From positions 1,247,424 through 1,311,423 of the forward strand of contig NZ_AP018449.1 of assembly GCF_003966895.1 (NCBI RefSeq): a stretch of DNA of 64,000 nucleotides, given 5' to 3'. Under the pieces are notes generated by a model. The model made no database searches and had not been told where the DNA came from. It was given only the letters and a program-made list of their open reading frames with translations. Position numbers and translations under genes: made by a program. The DNA comes from Methylomusa anaerophila (GTDB lineage: Bacteria; Bacillota; Negativicutes; Sporomusales; Sporomusaceae). Below, piece by piece: positions 2,355 to 63,539 of the stretch. Position 1 is the first letter of the stretch; each line of letters opens with the position of its first letter.

Positions 2355-5300
2355 TTAAGGGATAAAAGCAGTACCGATTTTTACTATTCCATCTACTACA
2401 TTTCCCCTAACAGTAATTAATGTATTATTAACTGTAATGACTTCTTCAAATACACCGGTTATACCCTTTGCAACAATTTGCTGTTGTGCGGCATTTTGAA
2501 GTGCATTATATGCTTTTACTTGATTTCCACCATATTGTGACAAGAATGGAGCAAGATTATGTTGTTGTTTTCCAAAAATATGGTTAAGTTTATTAGAATC
2601 AACTTGTGCCAGCGCAGGTGTACCCAACGTCAAAGTCTTCCAATCAACGTTTAACGCTACCCAAGTTGCCCCAACTAATACTGCGATCCCACCAGCAGAG
2701 GTAATCTTAAATCCATCATAGTCGCCAGGAGCTAAATCCTTATTTACTAATGCTTCTTGCGCCAATATTGATACATTCTGCAGTAAATTATAATTTTTTG
2801 GAGCATTTAAGTCTATTCCTGGTGGTAAATTCATTCCGCTGATTATTTGGTCTTGTGCTTTATCTACAGCATTCCAGTAAGCTATAGCCTCTTCGTCACC
2901 ATCAGCTTTCGCTTTTTCGAGTTGTTCTTTCTGCCAATCAGAAAGGAAATTATTCTTTGTCCCGCTAGCTGCAGTTGATGCACCTGTTTGGGCATCTCCA
3001 CCGATAACTGCTGCGGCAGCAGAACCTACTATAGCACTCGCCCATTGATGTAAGGCAGAGTCTTTTATTTTCGCTAATTCAGTTTGAATAGCTTCATTTA
3101 CTCCTGCACCAACAGCACTTGATACTACATTTCCACCCCCAAGATCTGCCATTACAGCTCCAACAAAAGCATGCAAAGCTATTTTTTGAGGACTGCTTTC
3201 ATCCCAGCCATTCGCTTTACTGATTTTATGAACCTGTTCATAAGCTACTTCGCCAAACAACTGAGCTAATTCCTGTTTTTCCTGAACTGTCTTCTTGTCA
3301 AATATCTTACCCAGTGCATTGAGTGCACCAGACGGATCACGACTTAAGCCGCTCAAATCCTGATTGGGATTGCTCCGTACTTCAATGGTTCCGGGGGATA
3401 TGGCCGATCTTGTGGTACTTTCTGCGTTTCCGCTGACGGTTACACCTATATTCGGAGTAAATCCTCGATCTTTTTTAGCTACGTCTTTACCTGCGTTGTA
3501 ATTAACTCCAATGCTGTTTGCCAAATACTTTGCTCTGTTCTCAAAATTGGAGAAGGTTAGCGTACCCGTCGACAGTTTATTCTTATCCGGCGTAGCCGTA
3601 CTGCTAATGACCGCACCCTTTAGGTCGGTATTCTTCCCTACCGTAATGTCAAAGCCGTCTTGACCGGCGAAGATCCCTGCCTGACTGGTGACACTGTCGT
3701 AGACGGAGTCGGTTTTGCCGGTATTGAAAGATCCATGGGTACCGCTGATTTTGCCGGTGCCGAAACCAACGCCGATGCTTTGATTGTTCGCCGTGTAGTC
3801 GTCGCTGTCCTGCAAGCTGGTGATGTTGAGGTTGCCGCCGATGTCGGCTTTTACTTTTTCGCCTATTACCTGGGAACCGGTAATGTTGGTGTCGTTGCCG
3901 GATTTGAGGTTTACTGTGCCGCTGGCGTCAATGACGCTGCCGGTATTGGTCACAGCGTTGCCCTTTTCTTTGCCGCTACTGCTGCCGAAGCTACCGGAGT
4001 AGCCTACGCCGATGGTGCCGCCTAAAGACCAGGAGGAGGAGCTGGTTTTGCCATCGATCTGTTGTTGGTTTTGGGCGGCGTCGAGGTTGATGTCGTTTTC
4101 GGCGTCCAAGGTGACCTCAGTCGCAGTGATTTTGGTCCCTTTGAGGTTGACATTACCGTCGGTGGCGGTGATGTTGACGTTGCCGCCGGCGCTGATGTTG
4201 GATGGGTTGACGCTTTCCACATGGGTGTTTTGCTCGGATGTGATTGTTGTGCTGCCAATACTGACGCCGACACCCACTCCTTTTGTCAGGTTGCCTTTGA
4301 AGTCCTTCAGTTTCTCAAGATCTTTAACGGCTTTGTACTCATACAGCGTTTTAAGCCGGTCATCCTGTACCTGGCCCGAGCGCTGGATGTCGTTATAAGC
4401 ACCCGTGGCAGCATCGATTACGCCGCCGCCTAAGGATACACTCAGGCCGCTTTGCTTGAATTCGTATTTGTACTGGCTGTCGTAGGTGTTTACTGTGTTG
4501 TCGATGGTGACATTTTTGCCGCTGATGTTGGTGTCCTGGCCGCTGATAATTGTAGTCCCGGCGCTGTTGACTTGGTTGCCGGCAATGAGGTTGACGTTGC
4601 CGTCGATGGAGCCGATGGTGCTGCCGGCTTGCTCCATGGTTTGTTGATCGAGGGTGGTTTTTTCGCTTTTGCTGCCGATGGTGAAGCCGAGGCCGCCGCT
4701 GCTGAAGAGGCCGGAGGTTTTTTGCTGGCGCATGTGTTCTTCCTGGGAGGTTTGTTGGGCGGCGGTAAGGGTAATGTCGTTGCCGGCCTGCAGGGTTACG
4801 TCATGGGTGGCGGCTACGTTGCTGCCGCTGATGTTGATGTCCCGGCCGGTTTGGACACTGATGCTGTCGGCCGAAAGGGTGGTGCCCTGGCTTAGGGTTT
4901 CCTGAACTTGGTCGTGGGTGGTGTAGGTGGTGCTGGAGAAGAAGCCGCTGGTGCCTTTGTGCTGATGGTTTTCCTCCACATTGTCGCTGCTCTGGCCTGC
5001 TGTCAGGTTGACGTCGCGGCCGGCGGTGAGGGTGAGGGGGCCTTGGCTGTCCAGGTAGGCGGCTCTGGCGTTGAGGTCATTGCCGGCTTGCAGTTCGGTG
5101 CTGCCCTGGGTTTGGATGGTGGTGCCGGTTTCGCTGCTGAAGCTGTCGCTGCGCCGGTTGTTGCCATCCCAGACCAGGCGGTTGCTGCCGCTTTGCCCGA
5201 CGGTGCCGAGGTTGAGGTCCTGCCCGGCGGCAAGGGTGGTTTGGCTGTCGGTGCCGCTGTTGTTGATTTCGGCGGCGGTGAGGTTGACGTTGCGTTGGGC

Positions 5301-8300
5301 GCTGGCCAGGAGCAGCCCGTTGCTGCCGGTGACGTAGAGGCCGGCGATTCGGTCGATGACGGTGCGGCTGCCGTTGTCGTTGGCCGCGGCCGTGGTGGTG
5401 GTGACGAGATTGAGGTCTCTGCCGGCCTGGGCGGTAAGGCTGCTGACGGCTTCCAGCCGCCCGCCGATGTTGTCAAGGTCGGTTCGGGCTTGCAGGTCCA
5501 GGTTGTTGCCCCGGATGCTGCCGCCGAGGTTGCGGATGTTTTCGGCGGTCAGAGCGACCAGGTTGTTGCCGGCGATGCCGCCGCTGTTGGTGAGGTCGCC
5601 GCTGAGGTTGAGCTTTACGTCATAGCCGGAGAGCAAAGCTCCTGAGGCAGCTAGGTCGCCTTCTTTGAGGGCGCACACGTAGAGTTGGGGTACCAGCGCC
5701 CGCGTTGTTTGGCCGTCCGGCAGGATCACGTCTTTTTCCACCAGCCAGACCAGGTCGCTTGTCAGTTCGGCCATCTGGTCTTCGGTGAGGGGTGTGCCAA
5801 CGGTCAATTGGTGGTCTTGGGCATAGGCTAAGGCGTTGTTCAGCAGGGCTTGGTACTGGTCCTGGTCGTTGGTGAAGTCTTTGAGGAAACGCCTGCCGGT
5901 GAGTTGTGTTACTTGTTGCTGGATCATTTTTTGTTCATAGAAACCGTCGCCTAACCGTGGGGGCGGGTCGCCGCGTTGGAAGGAAAGGTTGTTGAGCAGG
6001 TATTCGGAGGAAAGCCATTGCTGGTTGTTGGCGAATTGGGGGTCTACCCCGAACAGGAAGTTGTTGTTGGGGTTTTTGTTGATTGTAAAGAGGCTGTTGT
6101 TGGCTAGCTGGATGTTAACTCCGCCCGTGCGGATGATTTTGCCGGTAGGGGTCGTAACCTGGACGCCGGGTAGGACGGCAGCGCCGCCGGGTGTGACGAC
6201 TGCGGTGCCGGCTGTGGCGCCGGCTGCGACGGCAGTGACGCCGGCGGTGACGGCAGCGCCGCCGTTAGTGGCGACACCGGCAGGATTTGCTCCGGCTGCC
6301 GTTTGCTGGACGCTGCCGCTTGATCGGTCGCCTGGTTTGGCGCTGTCTAGTGATGGGGCCGCGTTTTCTTGATACTCCCCTTCCGCCAGTGTGATATTCT
6401 GAATCACGTCTGGCGGGTTATACCCGGTTGAACTGCTGCCGGTATCATCGCGGCCGCGGCGGTGGTTGCGCCAGTAGGAGGTGACGGTGCCGCTGTCGGT
6501 AGTGATGCGCTGTCCCTCGAAGCCGATGTTGTTTAAGGCGCCAATGCTGCCGCTTATGGTGCCGCCGGCGATGATTTTGCTCTTGTCGTTGGTGACGGTG
6601 TCGGCGATGATTTGCATGGCGCCGCCGGATAAGATTTGACCGGGGTCGGAGGTTTCTACTTTGCTTTCCATTGTCGTCCGGGTGTAACGGTAGGCCAGCC
6701 AGCTCTCAAATCCGCCTGCGGGAGTTTGGAGATGGTCGGATTCGTCGTTATAGATGTAGACGCCGGGGGTGCCGGCAAGGTAGCGGTTAGGAGATCCGCT
6801 ACCTTGGTATTCTTCCATTTGTTGTTCCTGGGTTTTTTCTATGACGGTGCTGAAGTGTTCGTTGGTGTTGTTGATTTCATGGCTAAAGAGGCTGAGATTG
6901 CCCCGGGCTTCTATGGTGGCGCTGTTGTTGTTGACTACGGCTGCCTGGCCGGTTGCTGTTTTGTCTGCCGCCAGGCTGCCCCCGACAGCCATGTCGCCGT
7001 CACTGTAGATGAGGGCGTGTTCCCGGTTAACAAGGGTCTGGGCGCCTATATCCAGGCGATTGCGGGCGGCGATGGCGGGCGCCGTGCCATTTTCCACATC
7101 GTTGGTGAGGGTATTGGCCTCAATGGCCAGTTGGTCGCCGTAGATACGGCCGGTTCCCAGATTGTTGAGGGTTCCTGCCTCGATCAGGGTTGTGCCGCCG
7201 TCAATGAGTCCCCGGTTGGTAAGGGTATCGGCGGCAACGGCGGTGTTTTTGCCGCTGATTTGACCGTCTACGGTGTTGTCGATGCTGCCGGCGATGACGG
7301 TAAGGCTGTTCCCGGCTTGAAGGGCTGTTTTGTTGGTGAAGGCGCCGGCGGTTTCCAGTTTGAGGTCGCCGTTGGCTTCCAGTTCACCGGTGTGGGTATA
7401 GTCTTGGGTGAGTTTAATGGTAAGATCGCCCTGGCTTACGATTTTGCCGTCGCCTGTGAGGCCGGCGCTGTTGATATTGAGTTGCTGCCCGGCGATCAAT
7501 GTTCCGCCGCTGTTGTTGATCTGCAGGGTCTTGTTGTCCAGGTTGGCATCTTGCAGGGTAAGGGTTTTTCCGGCAGAGACCAAGCCCTGGCTGTTGTTGA
7601 TCTGACCGCTGCCGGTCAGGGTCAAGGTTTCGTTGGCCCGGATGGCGCCCTGGCTGTTGTCGATTTGGGCGGCGGTAAGATTTACCGACCGGCCTTCGAT
7701 CCCCTGGTTTGTCTCCTGGGTATTGGTGTTGTCGATGGCGGCGGCGCGGATGGTGAGGGTTTGACCGGCCCGCACCAGGCTTTGCGCATTGCGGAATGTG
7801 CCGCCGAGTTGGATGCCTACATTGCCCAGGGCCTGGATTTGTCCGCCCTGGTTGTTTAGCGAGGCGGCGGTGATGTCCATTGCCCCGGCGCTGGTCAGCA
7901 GACCGCCCTGGCTATTGTTGATGTCGGCGCTTTTTACTGTAAGTGTATTTTCGCCGTAAATGTAGCCGGCCTGGTTGGTAAGGCTGCCGGTGAGCAGGTT
8001 GACGCTGCCGCGGCCAATGATACCGCCGGTGGCGCCGGAATTGGTGTTGGCAAGGGTTTGCCCGCCGGTGTCGAGGATGAGATCGCCTGCTGCCTGAACC
8101 AGGCCGGCTTCGTTGATAAAGATGCCGCTGCGGATGGTGGCCGGGCCGGCGGCGGCGATACTGCCGCGCGTGTTGTCAGTCCGTTGGTTATTGGTGTTGA
8201 CGTCCAGGCTGCCGCCGAGGATGACACCTTCTGTGTTGTTTAAGCCAATGGCGAAGATGCGGGTTTCCTTTTGGGCTTCCACCCGCCCTGCCGTGTTATC

Positions 8301-11300
8301 AAGAATACCGGTGGTTGCGGTGACGTCGGCTTGCCCCTGTACGGCGGCGATGGTACCCTGGGTGTTGTGGATCCGGCCGGCGCTGACGGCGACGTTTTGG
8401 TTGGCCGCCAGTAGTCCTTGCGTATTGGTGATGTCTTGGGTAACCGTTGCGCTTAAGGTTTGACCGGCGGTAATTTGTCCCTGGCTGTTGTTGAGGCTGT
8501 CGGCGGTTATGGTTGTGCTGCCGCCGGCACTGATGATTCCCGCCTGTCCGTTATATAGGCTGTTGTTGATGCTGCCGCGGGCATCAAGGACCAGATTGTT
8601 ATTATCAAGCCCGGAGGTTTGGATGCTGCCTCCCTGGTTGATAAGTTCGCCGACTTTTATCTTGGCGGCGCCATTGGCGGCAATCTTGCCGCCGCTGTTG
8701 TCGAGGGTATGGGCTGCGGTTATGGCGGCTTCTTCGCTGCCGGTCTGCAGGATGCTGCCGCCTCGGTTGGCTATGTCGGCGGCGGTTATGGTTACTTGAC
8801 CCGCCTGGATTTGTCCGCCCTGGTTGTTTAGCGAGGCGGCGGTGATGTCCATTGCCCCGGCGCTGGTCAGCAGACCGCCCTGGCTATTGTTGATGTCGGC
8901 GCTTTTTACTGTAAGTGTATTTTCGCCGTAAATGTAGCCGGCCTGGTTGGTAAGGCTGCCGGTGAGCAGGTTGACGCTGCCGCGGCCAATGATACCGCCG
9001 GTGGCGCCGGAATTGGTGTTGGCAAGGGTTTGCCCGCCGGTGTCGAGGATGAGATCGCCTGCTGCCTGAACCAGGCCGGCTTCGTTGATAAAGATGCCGC
9101 TGCGGATGGTGGCCGGGCCGGCGGCGGCGATACTGCCGCGCGTGTTGTCAGTCCGTTGGTTATTGGTGTTGACGTCCAGGCTGCCGCCGAGGATGACACC
9201 TTCTGTGTTGTTTAAGCCAATGGCGAAGATGCGGGTTTCCTTTTGGGCTTCCACCCGCCCTGCCGTGTTATCAAGAATACCGGTGGCCGCGGTGACGTCG
9301 GCTTGCCCCTGTACGGCGGCGATGGTGCCCTGGGTGTTGTGGATCCGGCCGGCGCTGACGGCGGCGTTTTGGTTGGCCGCCAGTAGTCCTTGCGTATTGG
9401 TGATGTCTTGGGTAACTGTTGCGCTTAAGGTTTGACCGGCGGTAATTTGTCCCTGGCTGTTGTTGAGGCTGTCGGCGGTTATGGTTGTGCTGCCGCCGGC
9501 ACTGATGATTCCCGCCTGTCCGTTATATAGGCTGTTGTTGATGCTGCCGCGGGCATCAAGGACCAGATTGTTATTATCAAGCCCGGAGGTTTGGATGCTG
9601 CCTCCCTGGTTGATAAGTTCGCCGACTTTTATCTTGGCGGCGCCATTGGCGGCAATTTTACCGCCGCTGTTGTCGAGGGTATGGGCTGCGGTTATGGCGG
9701 CTTCTTCGCTGCCGATCTGCAGGATGCTGCCGCCTCGGTTGGCTATGTTGGCGGCGGTGATGGTTACTTGACCCGCCTGGATTTGTCCGGCGGTTCCCCC
9801 GGCATTTTTGTCATTATTAAAGGTCTTGGCAGCGCTGATGTCAAGCTTGTCGCCCACATCCAGGCTTGCGCCCGTATGGGTGATGTCTCCTGTTGTGGCG
9901 CGAAGGGCGGCACTGCCTCCTGCCTGGTTCACGGCCCCGGTCAGGTTAATGGCTGTTCCTTGCAGGAGCATATTGCCGGCGGCTAGGTTTTGGCCGGTGG
10001 CGGTGAGGGTGTCTTGGGCAACCACCGTGAGATTGCCACTGCCGCCAAGTTTACCTTCACGGGTAACGCCTGCCCCAAGGGTACCGCTGGAGGATACGGT
10101 GTTGGCCGTAATGCCGGTGTTGCCGCCGGCGGTGATGGCGCCGGTATTGGTGAGGGCGCCGCCGGCGCCAATGGCAGCATCTTGGCCGGCATAGACGGTA
10201 CCTTGGTTATTTATATCGCCTTGGGCGGCGAGGGTGATGTTTTGATTGGCGGTGGTCGCGCCGGCCAGGTTGATGACGCCGCCGCTGTTGATGGCAAGGG
10301 CGCCGCCGGCAGCGATGGTGCTGGCCTCATTACTGTCCAGTCTTTCCCCTACATTGATGGTTATGTTGTTTTGGGCGGCAAGGGTGCCGGTATTGGTGAG
10401 GGCGCCTTGGGCGGCAAGGGTTGCATCTCGGCCGGCGTAGACGGTACCTTGGTTATGAATGTCGCCTTGGGCGGTGAGGGTGATGTTTTGATTGGCGGTG
10501 GTTGAGCCGGCCAGGTTGATGGCGCCGCCGCTGTTGATGGTCAGGTCGCCGCCGGCGGCGATGGTGCTGGCCTCATTACTGTCCAGTTTTGCCCCTACCC
10601 GGATGGTTAGGTTGTTTTGGGCGGTGAGGGTGCCGCTTTGATTGTTGACTGTATTGGCTGTGAGCTCGGCCTTTCCGTTGCTACCGATTTGGCCGCCTTG
10701 ATTGTTGATGTCCTGACGGACGGTGATGGTCAACAGGCCGCTATCCAGGTTGGCCACCCGACCGTTTTCATTTTGCAGGGATCGGGCTCTTATATTCAGT
10801 CCCTGGCCGGCCTCGATGGTTCCCCGCCGGTTGTGGACGGTGTCGGCAGCCGCTATTTTTACCGCGCTGCCGCCGCGAATGACACCGGTTTCATTGATTA
10901 GACCGGAACCGAGGCGGATGTCCATGTCTTTTTGGCTGTTGATTTGGCCGCTGGAGTTGTCAAGGTTTTGGGCGGTGAGGGTAAGTTGTCCGTTTGTGTC
11001 AATTTGTCCCCCGGTGTTGAGGGTGTCTCCTGCCGTCTTGAGTGTTAGGTTTTGGGCGCCGGCATGGACGATTGACCCTTTGGTGTTGATGAGGTTTTGA
11101 GCTTCGATTGTCAGGTTGGCGCCGTTGGCGCCGATTTGTCCGCTGGTGTTTATCGTGTCGCCGCTTGTCCGGATGGTTAATTCTTGTCCACCGGCATGGA
11201 TGATTTTCCCTGTAGTGTTATTTAGTTCTGCGGCCTCTATTGTCAGTTTGTCGCCGTGAGTCCCAATTTCTCCCCGGGAGTTGTTGATCGTGCCTTGAGC

Positions 11301-12782
11301 TGTTATCAGGGTGGTTTTTGTTCCGGTTTGGCTGATTACGCCGCCCATGTTGCTGACGGATCCGGCGGTTATGGTGATTTGGTCGGCCTGGAGCTGTCCT
11401 TTGGTCCCGATGGGGTTTTGGTCGTTGCTGAGTGTTCCGTTAGCTTTGGCGTTAAGGCTGCCCATGGCTTGTATTGTCCCGCCGGTGTTGGCAATGTCCC
11501 CCGTCCGGGCTGTGAGGTTTATGTTTTGACCGGCGTAGGTGTTGGCGCCGCTTAGGTCGACGGCTGCGGCCCGAATGGTTAGATTACCGGCGGCTGTGTT
11601 CTGCCCGCCGGCTTTTGTGCTGCCGGTTGTTGTGATGTTGATGTCGCCGTTTGGGGCGATGGTTCCGTCGCTATTTATGCCGGCGCCGATTGTGCCGGTT
11701 GAGTCAACGGCAGCTGCGGTAAGGGTGGTGTGCTCTCCGGCGGCAATGAGTCCGGCGTTGGTGAGTCCGGCCGGGGTGGTAAGGTTGACGCTTTTTGCGG
11801 CGTATACTAGGTCCTGGGTATCGAGGCCGCCTTGCGCGGAAATATAGATATTTTCCCCGGCGGTTGTGTTGCCGGCAAGGGTGACTTTGCCTTCACCGGT
11901 GACGGTTAGGTCGCCGGTGATTGCCGAAATTATTCCCTGGCTGTTCACCCCTACCCCTTGTTCGGTGCCGACAAGGTAGATTTTGTTGGCGTACATGCCG
12001 CCTAAAGCGCCTACGTCTATGGCTACGGCGGGTTTGTTGCTGGCGGCGCTTATTTTATCTGTATAGAGTGTGTCGTATTGGACTTCATTTGTGCCGGTAA
12101 CGACGTTGAGTTCGTTGGTCCAGATACCGGCATTGGCGGTTACCGCCCGGCTGATGAGGTCCACCCGGTCGGTGTCGCCGCCGTTGAGTCCGGCGCCGTC
12201 AATGCTGATTTGGCCGCCGCTTACCCGGAAGGCGCTTAGGCTGCCGTCGCCGCCGAATACCGGGGCGCCGGTGGTGAGGGTGGCGTGGCTGGTGTTGATA
12301 AAACCGGCTCCGTCTACAAAGATGCCGTTAGGGTTGGCCAGAATGAATTCGGCTTTTTGGCCGGCGATTTCGGTATAGCCGTTCAGATGGCTGGCTTGGG
12401 GCCCGCTGACTTCGCTCAAGATAATTCGGGCTGATCCTTTGAGGAGAAAAGGGTTGCCGGCGATATAGCCGGCTAACTGGGTGCCGACTATGTCGCGGGA
12501 GTTGTTTAGGATGAGTCCCTGGGAAAAGACGTCGAATTGCTGAAAGATGTTGCGGGATACGCCGGCCGCTGACGGGGTGGTGATTTGGACGACCGGCAGG
12601 CCGTTGGCGGTGAATTCTACGTAGGGCCGGTTGCTTCCCGGCGCGCTTTTGTCGACGATGGCGCTGGCGGCAACCAGGGTTGGCTGGCACAGCTGCAGGA
12701 TGGCGGTGAGCCAGATCAGCCATTTTTTTAGGCTTTGGCGCCGTTGGGTGGTGGTTTGATTATTGGTTCGCAGGCAAAGCAT
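2355..12782 (-). CDS. Filamentous haemagglutinin / CdiA-like TPS exoprotein with C-terminal toxin
   Basis: 3,475 residues. The ATG follows GAGAGGTG. Residues 1-42 are a long basic signal peptide. Residues about 45-250 form the TPS haemagglutination domain with NPNG and GNPFLL. To about residue 2000 there are beta-helix repeats rich in N, G, T and A (AGQ/NNxGG units), followed by a conserved non-repeat block with an Ala/Val/Thr/Gly linker (about 2160-2205) and DGFYEQ / LTGRRFL, then a second beta-helix region. A pretoxin region has TKNN at 3275-3278 in the place of the usual VENN. The tail about 3394-3475 (KLNHIFGK, HNL, VVDGIVKIGTAFIP) looks like a small toxin, possibly an RNase, but the fold is not proven. 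Such proteins are normally exported by a TpsB barrel and deliver toxin on contact. Here the adjacent tpsB is broken, so export needs another TpsB. GC drops sharply in the last ~700 bases. Confidence 0.9.
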   Translation of the reverse strand: MLCLRTNNQTTTQRRQSLKKWLIWLTAILQLCQPTLVAASAIVDKSAPGSNRPYVEFTANGLPVVQITTPSAAGVSRNIFQQFDVFSQGLILNNSRDIVGTQLAGYIAGNPFLLKGSARIILSEVSGPQASHLNGYTEIAGQKAEFILANPNGIFVDGAGFINTSHATLTTGAPVFGGDGSLSAFRVSGGQISIDGAGLNGGDTDRVDLISRAVTANAGIWTNELNVVTGTNEVQYDTLYTDKISAASNKPAVAIDVGALGGMYANKIYLVGTEQGVGVNSQGIISAITGDLTVTGEGKVTLAGNTTAGENIYISAQGGLDTQDLVYAAKSVNLTTPAGLTNAGLIAAGEHTTLTAAAVDSTGTIGAGINSDGTIAPNGDINITTTGSTKAGGQNTAAGNLTIRAAAVDLSGANTYAGQNINLTARTGDIANTGGTIQAMGSLNAKANGTLSNDQNPIGTKGQLQADQITITAGSVSNMGGVISQTGTKTTLITAQGTINNSRGEIGTHGDKLTIEAAELNNTTGKIIHAGGQELTIRTSGDTINTSGQIGANGANLTIEAQNLINTKGSIVHAGAQNLTLKTAGDTLNTGGQIDTNGQLTLTAQNLDNSSGQINSQKDMDIRLGSGLINETGVIRGGSAVKIAAADTVHNRRGTIEAGQGLNIRARSLQNENGRVANLDSGLLTITVRQDINNQGGQIGSNGKAELTANTVNNQSGTLTAQNNLTIRVGAKLDSNEASTIAAGGDLTINSGGAINLAGSTTANQNITLTAQGDIHNQGTVYAGRDATLAAQGALTNTGTLAAQNNITINVGERLDSNEASTIAAGGALAINSGGVINLAGATTANQNITLAAQGDINNQGTVYAGQDAAIGAGGALTNTGAITAGGNTGITANTVSSSGTLGAGVTREGKLGGSGNLTVVAQDTLTATGQNLAAGNMLLQGTAINLTGAVNQAGGSAALRATTGDITHTGASLDVGDKLDISAAKTFNNDKNAGGTAGQIQAGQVTITAANIANRGGSILQIGSEEAAITAAHTLDNSGGKIAANGAAKIKVGELINQGGSIQTSGLDNNNLVLDARGSINNSLYNGQAGIISAGGSTTITADSLNNSQGQITAGQTLSATVTQDITNTQGLLAANQNAAVSAGRIHNTQGTIAAVQGQADVTAATGILDNTAGRVEAQKETRIFAIGLNNTEGVILGGSLDVNTNNQRTDNTRGSIAAAGPATIRSGIFINEAGLVQAAGDLILDTGGQTLANTNSGATGGIIGRGSVNLLTGSLTNQAGYIYGENTLTVKSADINNSQGGLLTSAGAMDITAASLNNQGGQIQAGQVTITAADIANRGGSILQTGSEEAAITAAHTLDNSGGKIAANGAAKIKVGELINQGGSIQTSGLDNNNLVLDARGSINNSLYNGQAGIISAGGSTTITADSLNNSQGQITAGQTLSATVTQDITNTQGLLAANQNVAVSAGRIHNTQGTIAAVQGQADVTATTGILDNTAGRVEAQKETRIFAIGLNNTEGVILGGSLDVNTNNQRTDNTRGSIAAAGPATIRSGIFINEAGLVQAAGDLILDTGGQTLANTNSGATGGIIGRGSVNLLTGSLTNQAGYIYGENTLTVKSADINNSQGGLLTSAGAMDITAASLNNQGGQIQALGNVGIQLGGTFRNAQSLVRAGQTLTIRAAAIDNTNTQETNQGIEGRSVNLTAAQIDNSQGAIRANETLTLTGSGQINNSQGLVSAGKTLTLQDANLDNKTLQINNSGGTLIAGQQLNINSAGLTGDGKIVSQGDLTIKLTQDYTHTGELEANGDLKLETAGAFTNKTALQAGNSLTVIAGSIDNTVDGQISGKNTAVAADTLTNRGLIDGGTTLIEAGTLNNLGTGRIYGDQLAIEANTLTNDVENGTAPAIAARNRLDIGAQTLVNREHALIYSDGDMAVGGSLAADKTATGQAAVVNNNSATIEARGNLSLFSHEINNTNEHFSTVIEKTQEQQMEEYQGSGSPNRYLAGTPGVYIYNDESDHLQTPAGGFESWLAYRYTRTTMESKVETSDPGQILSGGAMQIIADTVTNDKSKIIAGGTISGSIGALNNIGFEGQRITTDSGTVTSYWRNHRRGRDDTGSSSTGYNPPDVIQNITLAEGEYQENAAPSLDSAKPGDRSSGSVQQTAAGANPAGVATNGGAAVTAGVTAVAAGATAGTAVVTPGGAAVLPGVQVTTPTGKIIRTGGVNIQLANNSLFTINKNPNNNFLFGVDPQFANNQQWLSSEYLLNNLSFQRGDPPPRLGDGFYEQKMIQQQVTQLTGRRFLKDFTNDQDQYQALLNNALAYAQDHQLTVGTPLTEDQMAELTSDLVWLVEKDVILPDGQTTRALVPQLYVCALKEGDLAASGALLSGYDVKLNLSGDLTNSGGIAGNNLVALTAENIRNLGGSIRGNNLDLQARTDLDNIGGRLEAVSSLTAQAGRDLNLVTTTTAAANDNGSRTVIDRIAGLYVTGSNGLLLASAQRNVNLTAAEINNSGTDSQTTLAAGQDLNLGTVGQSGSNRLVWDGNNRRSDSFSSETGTTIQTQGSTELQAGNDLNARAAYLDSQGPLTLTAGRDVNLTAGQSSDNVEENHQHKGTSGFFSSTTYTTHDQVQETLSQGTTLSADSISVQTGRDINISGSNVAATHDVTLQAGNDITLTAAQQTSQEEHMRQQKTSGLFSSGGLGFTIGSKSEKTTLDQQTMEQAGSTIGSIDGNVNLIAGNQVNSAGTTIISGQDTNISGKNVTIDNTVNTYDSQYKYEFKQSGLSVSLGGGVIDAATGAYNDIQRSGQVQDDRLKTLYEYKAVKDLEKLKDFKGNLTKGVGVGVSIGSTTITSEQNTHVESVNPSNISAGGNVNITATDGNVNLKGTKITATEVTLDAENDINLDAAQNQQQIDGKTSSSSWSLGGTIGVGYSGSFGSSSGKEKGNAVTNTGSVIDASGTVNLKSGNDTNITGSQVIGEKVKADIGGNLNITSLQDSDDYTANNQSIGVGFGTGKISGTHGSFNTGKTDSVYDSVTSQAGIFAGQDGFDITVGKNTDLKGAVISSTATPDKNKLSTGTLTFSNFENRAKYLANSIGVNYNAGKDVAKKDRGFTPNIGVTVSGNAESTTRSAISPGTIEVRSNPNQDLSGLSRDPSGALNALGKIFDKKTVQEKQELAQLFGEVAYEQVHKISKANGWDESSPQKIALHAFVGAVMADLGGGNVVSSAVGAGVNEAIQTELAKIKDSALHQWASAIVGSAAAAVIGGDAQTGASTAASGTKNNFLSDWQKEQLEKAKADGDEEAIAYWNAVDKAQDQIISGMNLPPGIDLNAPKNYNLLQNVSILAQEALVNKDLAPGDYDGFKITSAGGIAVLVGATWVALNVDWKTLTLGTPALAQVDSNKLNHIFGKQQHNLAPFLSQYGGNQVKAYNALQNAAQQQIVAKGITGVFEEVITVNNTLITVRGNVVDGIVKIGTAFIP
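7837..9780 (-). repeat. 972-bp near-perfect tandem duplication inside the exoprotein gene
   Basis: 7837-8808 and 8809-9780 are almost identical, offset by exactly 972 bases (324 codons), for example the ILRIFAIGLNN-type segments at matching positions. Only a few substitutions separate the copies. They encode residues about 1002-1325 and 1326-1649 and keep the frame, so they lengthen the beta-helix stalk. The near-identity points to a recent duplication or to gene conversion. A collapse or expansion during assembly is also possible. Confidence 0.95.
10141..10632 (-). repeat. 246-bp (82-codon) tandem repeat, two diverged units
   Basis: Two consecutive 82-residue units share LDSNEASTIAAGG, TTANQNIT and NQGTVYAG. 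For example, the 20-base string beginning ctggcctcat occurs at 10321 and again at 10567, 246 bases apart. The units are more diverged than the 972-bp pair, so this is an older in-frame duplication within the same beta-helix region. Confidence 0.85.
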
Positions 12783-14938: not shown

Positions 14939-15247
14939 TTACCTCCTGCGGGATTTATATGACGTTTGGTGCCTTTTGGGCATATCATAAGCAGTTATTA
15001 CCCTTATCGTATCCTTGCGTAATATCTCGAAAATTACGGTTAATAACCGTCCCTCACTGGTTTCTCCTAGCGCAAAATACCGCTTTGCCCCTTCGTCCTC
15101 TGTCCGCGCTACTCGAAAATAAGGGCCATTAAAAAATATATCCTCAGCTTCTTCCGGTTGCACGCCATGTTTTTGCACGATGTGGTTGGTATTTATTCTG
15201 TCCCACTCGAAATCCACAATCGCAAAGTTCATGTGGTATGCAACCAT
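14939..15247 (-). CDS. brnT: BrnT-type ribonuclease toxin (DUF497)
   Basis: 102 residues from the ATG at 15247, preceded by AGCAGGTG; an upstream extension to 15367 is low-complexity and unlikely. Family hallmarks are VDFEWDRINTNHIVQKHGVQ followed by EEAEDIFFNGPYFR, the RYFALGETSEGRLLTVIFEI core and a basic C-terminus (PKRHQTSYKSRRR). BrnT toxins adopt a RelE-like fold and cleave RNA in the cytoplasm. It is coupled to the antitoxin gene that follows. The family length is about 90-100 residues, so this copy seems whole. Confidence 0.88.
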   Translation of the reverse strand: MVAYHMNFAIVDFEWDRINTNHIVQKHGVQPEEAEDIFFNGPYFRVARTEDEGAKRYFALGETSEGRLLTVIFEILRKDTIRVITAYDMPKRHQTSYKSRRR

Positions 15248-15385
15248 CGAAACACCTGCTTTCTTAATTTCATTATAATAATTTGTATTTCTATTGTAAA
15301 TACGGTTGAAGCATCGGCAGCAAAAAAAACAGCCATCAATTTCATTACTAAGAATGCGATTAGTCACTAGACTTTACTAGACTAT

Positions 15386-15664
15386 TATATATGTCGCATT
15401 AAAAAATTGACATCCGGGTATCAGGATAAGCTGAGGTTAAGCGATGGTGGTCTGTAAACTCTAAGACTATAGGATGAATTGCGAGAGGTTTTTCGTCCTG
15501 CGAGGCGGAGGAGGCGCGCATATCGGGAATATGTAAGCCGACGACAACAAAGCAGGACGGAAAACCTCTCGCAAGAACACTATAGAATTAGCGTTTACAG
15601 ACCACTAGCGTCGAAGCGTTCCTAATACCCGGATATAATTTCAATTCTTTAATGCGTTCCATAT
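15386..15664. repeat. Palindromic dispersed element (family A), copy 1, carrying an insert
   Basis: The outer sequence (TGTCGCATTAAA ... TTTAATGCGTTCC ends; internal ggataagctgag and gcgttcctaatacccgg) recurs at 54361-54474 and 63369-63480. Its ends are inverted repeats of each other, as in a MITE or REP-like element of about 112 bp. In this copy the middle is interrupted by a second palindromic segment (15445-15607). Confidence 0.85.
15445..15607. repeat. 163-bp palindromic insert nested in the family A repeat
   Basis: TGGTCTGTAAAC (15448-15459) and GTTTACAGACCA (15593-15604) are perfect terminal inverted repeats. Inside them GCGAGAGGTTTTTCGTCCTGC (15481-15501) pairs with its near-complement at 15552-15572. 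The apex contains gcgcatatcgggaatatgt and a gacgacaacaaagc tail resembling the repeats at 38561 and 39696. The other two copies of the host repeat lack this segment, so it is an insertion. Confidence 0.85.
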
Positions 15665-15723
15665 GGGTAGTCAGGGAGAAAAATATTTGCGGAGCAGCAA
15701 GCTATAAATTAACTTGGCCTTAA

Positions 15724-29049: not shown

Positions 29050-29077
29050 TATATATGTCCCGTTAAAGAATTGAAAT
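29050..29077. repeat. Partial family A repeat end
   Basis: tatatatgtcccgttaaag plus aattg matches the left end of the palindromic element at 15386, 54361 and 63369, but the rest of the element is missing. It is a remnant or a solo end between mutY and the RND operon. Confidence 0.5.
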
Positions 29078-29083
29078 TATATG

Positions 29084-54360: not shown

Positions 54361-54474
54361 ATATATACGCCGCATTAAAGAATTGGTATCTGGTATCAGG
54401 ATAAGCTGAGGTTGAGCGACAGCGCCGAAGCGTTCCTAATACTCGGATATAATTCAATTCTTTAATGCGTTCCA
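54361..54474. repeat. Family A palindromic element, copy 2 (uninterrupted)
   Basis: Same 112-base pattern as at 15386 and 63369, with the ends cgcattaaagaattg and caattctttaatgcg in inverted orientation and the central gcgacagcgccgaagcgtt intact. It gives the empty-site form for the insertion at 15445. Confidence 0.85.
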
Positions 54475-54610
54475 TGTAGTCATGTAGCATAATAGTATAT
54501 TTTCTGTGTAGTTCTTACATCTCCTTCTGGTTGTAACATGTAATAGTAATTACGTAATTACATTGATCCCGGGCAAGCACTGCGTGCTTCACATATCCTC
54601 CTATACTTCC

Positions 54611-59905: not shown

Positions 59906-60099
59906 AACAGGTGAACCATTACAGTCCTGTTGGATAAATCGCTGACTGCCTTATCCTCTTTCATCCGGACTGTAACCGTCGGCTCTGGCATCAAACCAGA
60001 TCTGCAGACCTCTTGTTTCGGTAAGAAAAAGAGCGCACGCGGGCTCCCTAGATCCATCTAGGATACCGCCGGTGGGGACTTTCACCCCGCCCTGAGAAT
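59906..60099 (-). promoter_or_regulatory. FMN riboswitch (RFN element) with terminator hairpin
   Basis: Minus-strand blocks in order: TCAGGGCGGGGTGAAAGTCC, CCACCGGCGGTA, a variable stem, AGCCCGCG, GGTCTGCAGATCTGGT, GCCAGAGCCGACGGTTACAG and TCCGGATGAAAGAGGATAAG: the full RFN consensus (59951-60099). Then AACAGG...CCTGTTTTT (59906-59932) gives a terminator, so FMN probably stops ribB transcription. Confidence 0.96.
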
Positions 60100-60112
60100 A
60101 AGTCACAGTTTG

Positions 60113-63368: not shown

Positions 63369-63480
63369 TATATATGTCGCATTAAAAATTGACATCCGGG
63401 TATTCGGATAAGCTGAGTTAAGCGACAACGTCGAGGCGTTATACCCGGATATAATTTCAAGTCTTTAATGCGTTCCATAT
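63369..63480. repeat. Family A palindromic element, copy 3
   Basis: tgtcgcattaaaaattgaca, ggataagctgagttaagcga and tacccggatataatttcaag plus ctttaatgcgttcc match copies 1 and 2. It is slightly shortened (a 6-base deletion next to gcgtta). Confidence 0.85.
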
Positions 63481-63490
63481 AACTGAAATA

Positions 63491-63539
63491 TGATTAATAA
63501 AAGCAGCAGGTATATCAAACCTGCTGCTTTTATTAATCA
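63491..63539. terminator. 21-bp perfect hairpin
   Basis: Positions 63491-63511 (tgattaataaaagcagcagg plus t) and 63519-63539 are exact complements with a 7-base loop. T-rich on both outer sides. It could terminate transcription arriving from either direction. Confidence 0.8.

Follow-up and report, generated by a model that had tools for sequence, protein, structure and literature searches.

The stretch analysed here, hereafter the window, comprises 64,000 nucleotides (G000:C1:1247424-1311423) of a 4.78-Mb single-contig genome, and all positions below without a contig prefix count from its first letter unless a locus elsewhere is named. A 3475-aa filamentous haemagglutinin-like protein with a TPS domain and haemagglutinin repeats is encoded at 2355-12782 (-); within its gene two identical stretches, each 300 bases or longer, lie 972 bases apart (at 7831 and 8803), and part of the gene may be tandemly duplicated. 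Beyond it, a BrnT-type toxin homologue at 14939-15367 (-) adjoins a pair of nested small elements (15386-15665), which has this BrnT-like gene on one side and, on the other, a gene (probably addA) for a protein with UvrD-helicase and PD-(D/E)XK domains.

The outer or host element of the pair belongs to a family of short repeats, family A. Its left part runs from TATATATG to GCGA (15386-15444, +) and its right part occupies 15608-15665 (+); i.e., the left half of the family sequence (TATATATGTCGCATTAAAAAATTGACATCCGGGTATCAGGATAAGCTGAGGTTAAGCGA) stops at 15444 and the right half (GCGTCGAAGCGTTCCTAATACCCGGATATAATTTCAATTCTTTAATGCGTTCCATATG) starts again at 15608. The 163 bases in between (15445-15607) consist of a left target-site copy that now reads TG, where TA is expected (15445-15446), a 159-bp element, here termed B (15447-15605, +), and a right target-site copy, TA (15606-15607). 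If one TA was the target, the net gain is 161 bp. The sequence-only reading had described a 163-bp insert at this point, with the copies starting at 54361 and 63369 continuous through it, and both statements hold: uninterrupted copies are present at 54361-54478 and 63370-63484 (both +). An end fragment of family A, one arm only, lies at 29050-29082 (-) in addition to the copies already reported, and a perfect 21-bp inverted repeat of terminator-like character lies at 63491-63539, just downstream of the third copy.

Element B begins with GTGGTCTGTAAAC and ends with GTTTACAGACCAC, and its conserved strand (GGCGGAGGAG) is the plus strand. The outer arms with the terminal inverted repeats (15447-15472 and 15580-15605, both +) fall within a longer arm pair (15442-15472 with 15580-15610; 31 bp, 84% complementary), of which the perfect 12-bp terminal repeats seen earlier are a part. 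The inner stem is likewise present, its length being 23 bp at 96% complementarity (15479-15501 with 15552-15574, both +) rather than the 21 bp first given. Between the outer arms is the conserved core common to all B subfamilies (15488-15565, +; G000:C1:1262911-1262988; covariance model R1).

The genome-wide search that the sequence-only reading had proposed for both elements returned 13 near-full-length copies of B (95-100% identity) and about 40 dispersed copies of family A (~112 bp), so that the insert is not a chance arrangement; B is not unique in the genome, and matching host sequence stands on both of its flanks. About 20 further elements in the same genome share mainly the central 76 bases of B and have different arms. 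Across the class, a covariance model of the core detected it in 71 of 300 Negativicutes genomes, representing 32 of 97 genera, and a full-length BLAST query matched in 16 of 60 genomes including that of the window, which falls in the family of the Sporomusa genomes. Exactly 159 bp is the length of 55 of the 74 intact, well-delimited elements. The terminal repeats vary between subfamilies yet stay complementary, and the centre is conserved: 66 kinds of terminal 12-mer occur among 103 elements, some mis-framed by the automatic end search. Within the recent burst in the genome of the window, outer arms and core have diverged equally (0.037 vs 0.032), whereas the arms of G001 elements differ about five times more than their cores (0.207 vs 0.040), with some compensated pairs. 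No match to B was obtained in collections of plasmids, phages or viruses, and spread by such vehicles was rejected on these grounds; nor, in a search of largely open-access literature, did we come upon a paper naming an element of this kind from Sporomusa or from the Negativicutes.

Variant forms of B were also encountered. Two of about 50 bp, without everything between two CTATAG repeats, occur in G000 (L120, 735900-736500; L121, 3044700-3045200), and one of them abuts another element. Other variants of the core have extra segments of roughly 45-70 bases at set positions in the central loop (L160-L164, L116, L229, L232, L235), and these segments are common to several copies and several genomes.

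Target-site duplications, which the sequence-only reading had suggested looking for, are a signature of the family. TA stands on both flanks in 65 of the 74 well-delimited elements, 47 of these 65 lying in a CTAG target and the others in sites including CTAA, TTAG and TTAA. These flanks are best explained by duplication of TA, next to which C and G are favoured. We rejected a 4-bp duplication of CTAG, given that many elements have unlike outer bases on their two sides and that the window site cannot be rebuilt from it. The window junctions read GCGATG on the left and TAGCGTCG on the right. At the corresponding point, most uninterrupted family A copies have GCGACAGCG, and two have a TA (GATAGC) in its place (L039, GCGATAGCG; L056, GTGATAGCC). 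Judged from these copies as the likely empty state, the site fits a single TA target and a TA duplication, one copy of which is now TG. A C-to-T change making TA in family A, then insertion, and then one TA-to-TG change would yield the present junctions. There is a second, independent nested case in the same genome (L123, 3152800-3153250): a copy of family A is interrupted there by a 21-bp palindrome that consists of B ends only (GTGGTCTGTAATACAGACCAC) and stands between two TAs. B starts with G and ends with C, so that insertion into C-TA-G leaves CTAG, still a good target, at each end; elements can therefore come to lie end to end, and abutting B elements with one TA in common occur at L120, L122, L208 and L271.

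Among 37 non-redundant elements, 94% of cells in the aligned stems form standard pairs, against 33-40% when the partners are slid, and two-sided changes are found in 30 of 42 pairs. Since both ends have to be recognised by one and the same transposase, the terminal repeats would covary in any case, and their covariation does not by itself demonstrate a folded strand. Matched changes are seen in the inner stem and the apical hairpin as well: CATAT/ATATG, CAGAT/ATCTG and CATAC/GTATG all occur, and GCC/GGC is swapped with GGC/GCC. A strand asymmetry accompanies this. On the plus strand of 16 clusters, wobble (G-T) outnumbers A-C by 22:4 in the arms and 21:1 in the inner stem, as against 1:4 in the outermost 7 pairs; the pairs were chosen by the plus-strand fold, which favours G-U there, and the outer 19 pairs, being plain inverted-repeat positions, are less exposed to this. 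The wobble excess could come partly from that choice of pairs or from strand-specific C-to-T deamination in single-stranded DNA. The plus-strand fold is also the more stable in all 37 elements (mean -71.2 vs -53.7 kcal/mol), about 6 of the 17.5 kcal/mol being attributable to base composition according to shuffles. The centre and stems of B thus appear to be under selection as one folded strand whose length is fixed; this strand is more likely to be RNA, but could be single-stranded DNA.

Several properties tie B to the IS630 group. It is short, non-coding, dispersed and multicopy, with terminal inverted repeats, TA duplication and CTAG preference, as a MITE would be. IS630 itself is said to prefer TA within CTAG, reportedly an observation of Tenzen and Ohtsubo in 1991. 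Members of the family insert into TA and duplicate it, as in ISY100 (PMC2170065). The genome of the window has two IS630 types with three copies each, and C-TA-GT ends are found in one of these two types as well as in the IS630 of G001 and G004. In G004, the IS630 end GTGACTTGCCAAAGTTTTGA is identical at 18 of 20 positions to the end of one B subfamily, GTGTCTTGCCAAAGTTGTGA, a match reached by none of 2000 shuffles, which keep composition and not ancestry. Of the transposase with the same termini that the sequence-only reading had thought worth seeking, a near match has thus come to light in a related genome, for a sister subfamily and not for that of the window: no IS630 with GTGGTCTGTAAAC ends was found in this genome by transposase family, and a search by terminal pattern in ten element-rich relatives returned only non-autonomous copies. 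DDE_3 transposases are absent from 7 of these 10 relatives, and IS630 is rare in the class as a whole (13 of 250 genomes at E<=1e-15). The B core was not found in the fetched IS630 loci at E<=1, and no derivation by internal deletion of an IS630 was seen. Such a derivation is true of some MITEs and is not required of all.

Taken together, B is probably a non-autonomous DNA transposon (MITE) moved by IS630/Tc1/mariner transposases, with a folded core that appears to be kept by selection and terminal repeats that have co-diverged. There is good support at the window site for one small element having transposed into another. A transposase would bind both terminal inverted repeats of B and excise it; B would then be joined to the TA of a family A copy in which GCGACAGCG had changed to GCGATAGCG, and repair would duplicate that TA. 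The central 78 bases and the stems would be kept as a folded strand, be it RNA or one DNA strand, and the two terminal repeats would have diverged jointly, most likely as they came to follow different transposases. Loss of the partner transposase of the GTGGTCTGTAAAC subfamily after its spread would be the simplest reading of the window's genome. For the core, we favour a part in moving B or in controlling that movement, played as RNA or as a single strand. A stronger version, in which transposition depends on or is regulated by the strand-specific folded centre, such that the ends are free to switch transposases and the core is the heritable identity of a partner-switching, RNA-capped MITE, is offered tentatively, as an idea that we think could well prove wrong.

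The same conserved core and compensating arms would also be expected if a structure-specific enzyme, host-encoded or phage-borne, recognised the folded single-strand core and cut at the foot of the hairpin, leaving the arms free to vary as long as they pair. The strand asymmetry, the contrast between arms and cores in G001 (0.207 vs 0.040) and the lack of DDE_3 in most element-rich relatives all suit such an enzyme. We nevertheless consider it unlikely, as TA flanks with CTAG preference are an IS630 signature and the ends of one IS630 match those of a B subfamily; moreover, a rough count by eye in G000, with the origin assumed, gave no strand bias relative to the presumed direction of replication, and the forms of about 50 bp at L120 and L121 have no core, though these are possibly deletions in place.

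Two further explanations shift the weight away from transposition. Selection might have spread B primarily as a functional RNA (a regulator, processing site or terminator), its mobility being secondary, and the covariation, the wobble asymmetry and the extra loop segments of some variants (G004, G001), as in structured RNAs, are in keeping with this. Its orientation to neighbouring genes is inconsistent, however (18 vs 16 in same-strand pairs, with genes called by a simple ORF scan), and this absence of bias also led us to reject a cis-regulatory role judged from gene orientation. No Rfam 15 family scored above its gathering threshold for B, whereby a known RNA identity was rejected, and the burst of near-identical copies in the genome of the window is a further argument against a primarily RNA-based spread, which we regard as very improbable. 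Least credible of all is that palindromes produced the nesting by recombining with each other or through replication slippage: palindromes are indeed prone to such events and shortened derivatives of B do exist (L120, L121, L123, L125), but many unrelated sites hold the 159-bp unit with precise ends and TA on its flanks, and in the window the family A sequence is otherwise unbroken on either side.

MITEs usually keep the ends that a transposase reads while the middle drifts; the inserted family is a variant of IS630-type MITEs in which this conservation pattern is unusual, the reverse of the usual one. REP elements, which are associated with RAYT transposases, are similarly palindromic and intergenic with a structure recognised by the enzyme, but the TA duplication and double-ended terminal repeats of B do not fit RAYT action. 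With ISY100 and other IS630/Tc1/mariner elements B shares the TA target and its duplication (PMC2170065), and relatives here have C-TA-GT ends; it differs from these insertion sequences in having no gene, and none of the IS630 loci examined contains its core. RUP of Streptococcus pneumoniae, a 107-bp intergenic element present in many copies and proposed to be mobilised by IS630-Spn1, resembles B in its TA-containing target, IS630-like terminal repeats and insertion into other mobile elements (PMC2229807), whereas B is 159 bp long, has a folded core conserved over many genera and many types of terminal repeat, and has no matching transposase found in its own genome. The Correia elements or NEMIS of Neisseria, palindromic MITEs that occur in 107- and 155-bp forms and whose hairpin, as RNA, is proposed to be a target of RNase III (PMC2229807), are comparable by description as small palindromic MITEs, but in B it is the centre and not the ends that is conserved. 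With this pattern, two questions become testable: how non-autonomous elements outlive the loss of their transposase (a change of ends may be one way), and whether structure in RNA or in a single strand can be a requirement for a bacterial MITE.

Family A, the host of the insertion, is probably a second IS630-type MITE: its ends, of the form C-TA-TATG..., are similar to those of an IS630 from the same genome, and ATTAAAGAATTGACA resembles, as judged by eye, ATTAAAGATTTACA of the IS630 copy L091. The proposal that two small non-coding families have been mobile here is thus supported, both being dispersed and multicopy and B lying inside A with the signature of a target duplication; for family A, mobility is read from the dispersed copies and the IS630-like ends. 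What the sequence-only reading could not convey, and in which it was incomplete and not wrong, is that B represents a single branch of a family spread across the class, in which a structured centre is conserved and the ends vary. Family A may share this plan of conserved centre and variable arms. Its centre (AAGCNGAGGTTAAGCG...AGCNYCGRAGCGTTC), which an exact-pattern search located in just 3 of 300 Negativicutes genomes, that of the window included, recurs in G026 and at eight places in G058, with arms differing by place. At L298, L299, L301, L303, L305, L307, L309, L311 and L313 (G026, G058) this centre forms the tip of GC-rich hairpins with locus-specific arms, and some of the hairpins so capped are followed by T-runs, resembling intrinsic terminators. 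Elsewhere in the window, an FMN riboswitch lies at 59949-60103 (-; Rfam RF00050, 109.9 bits).
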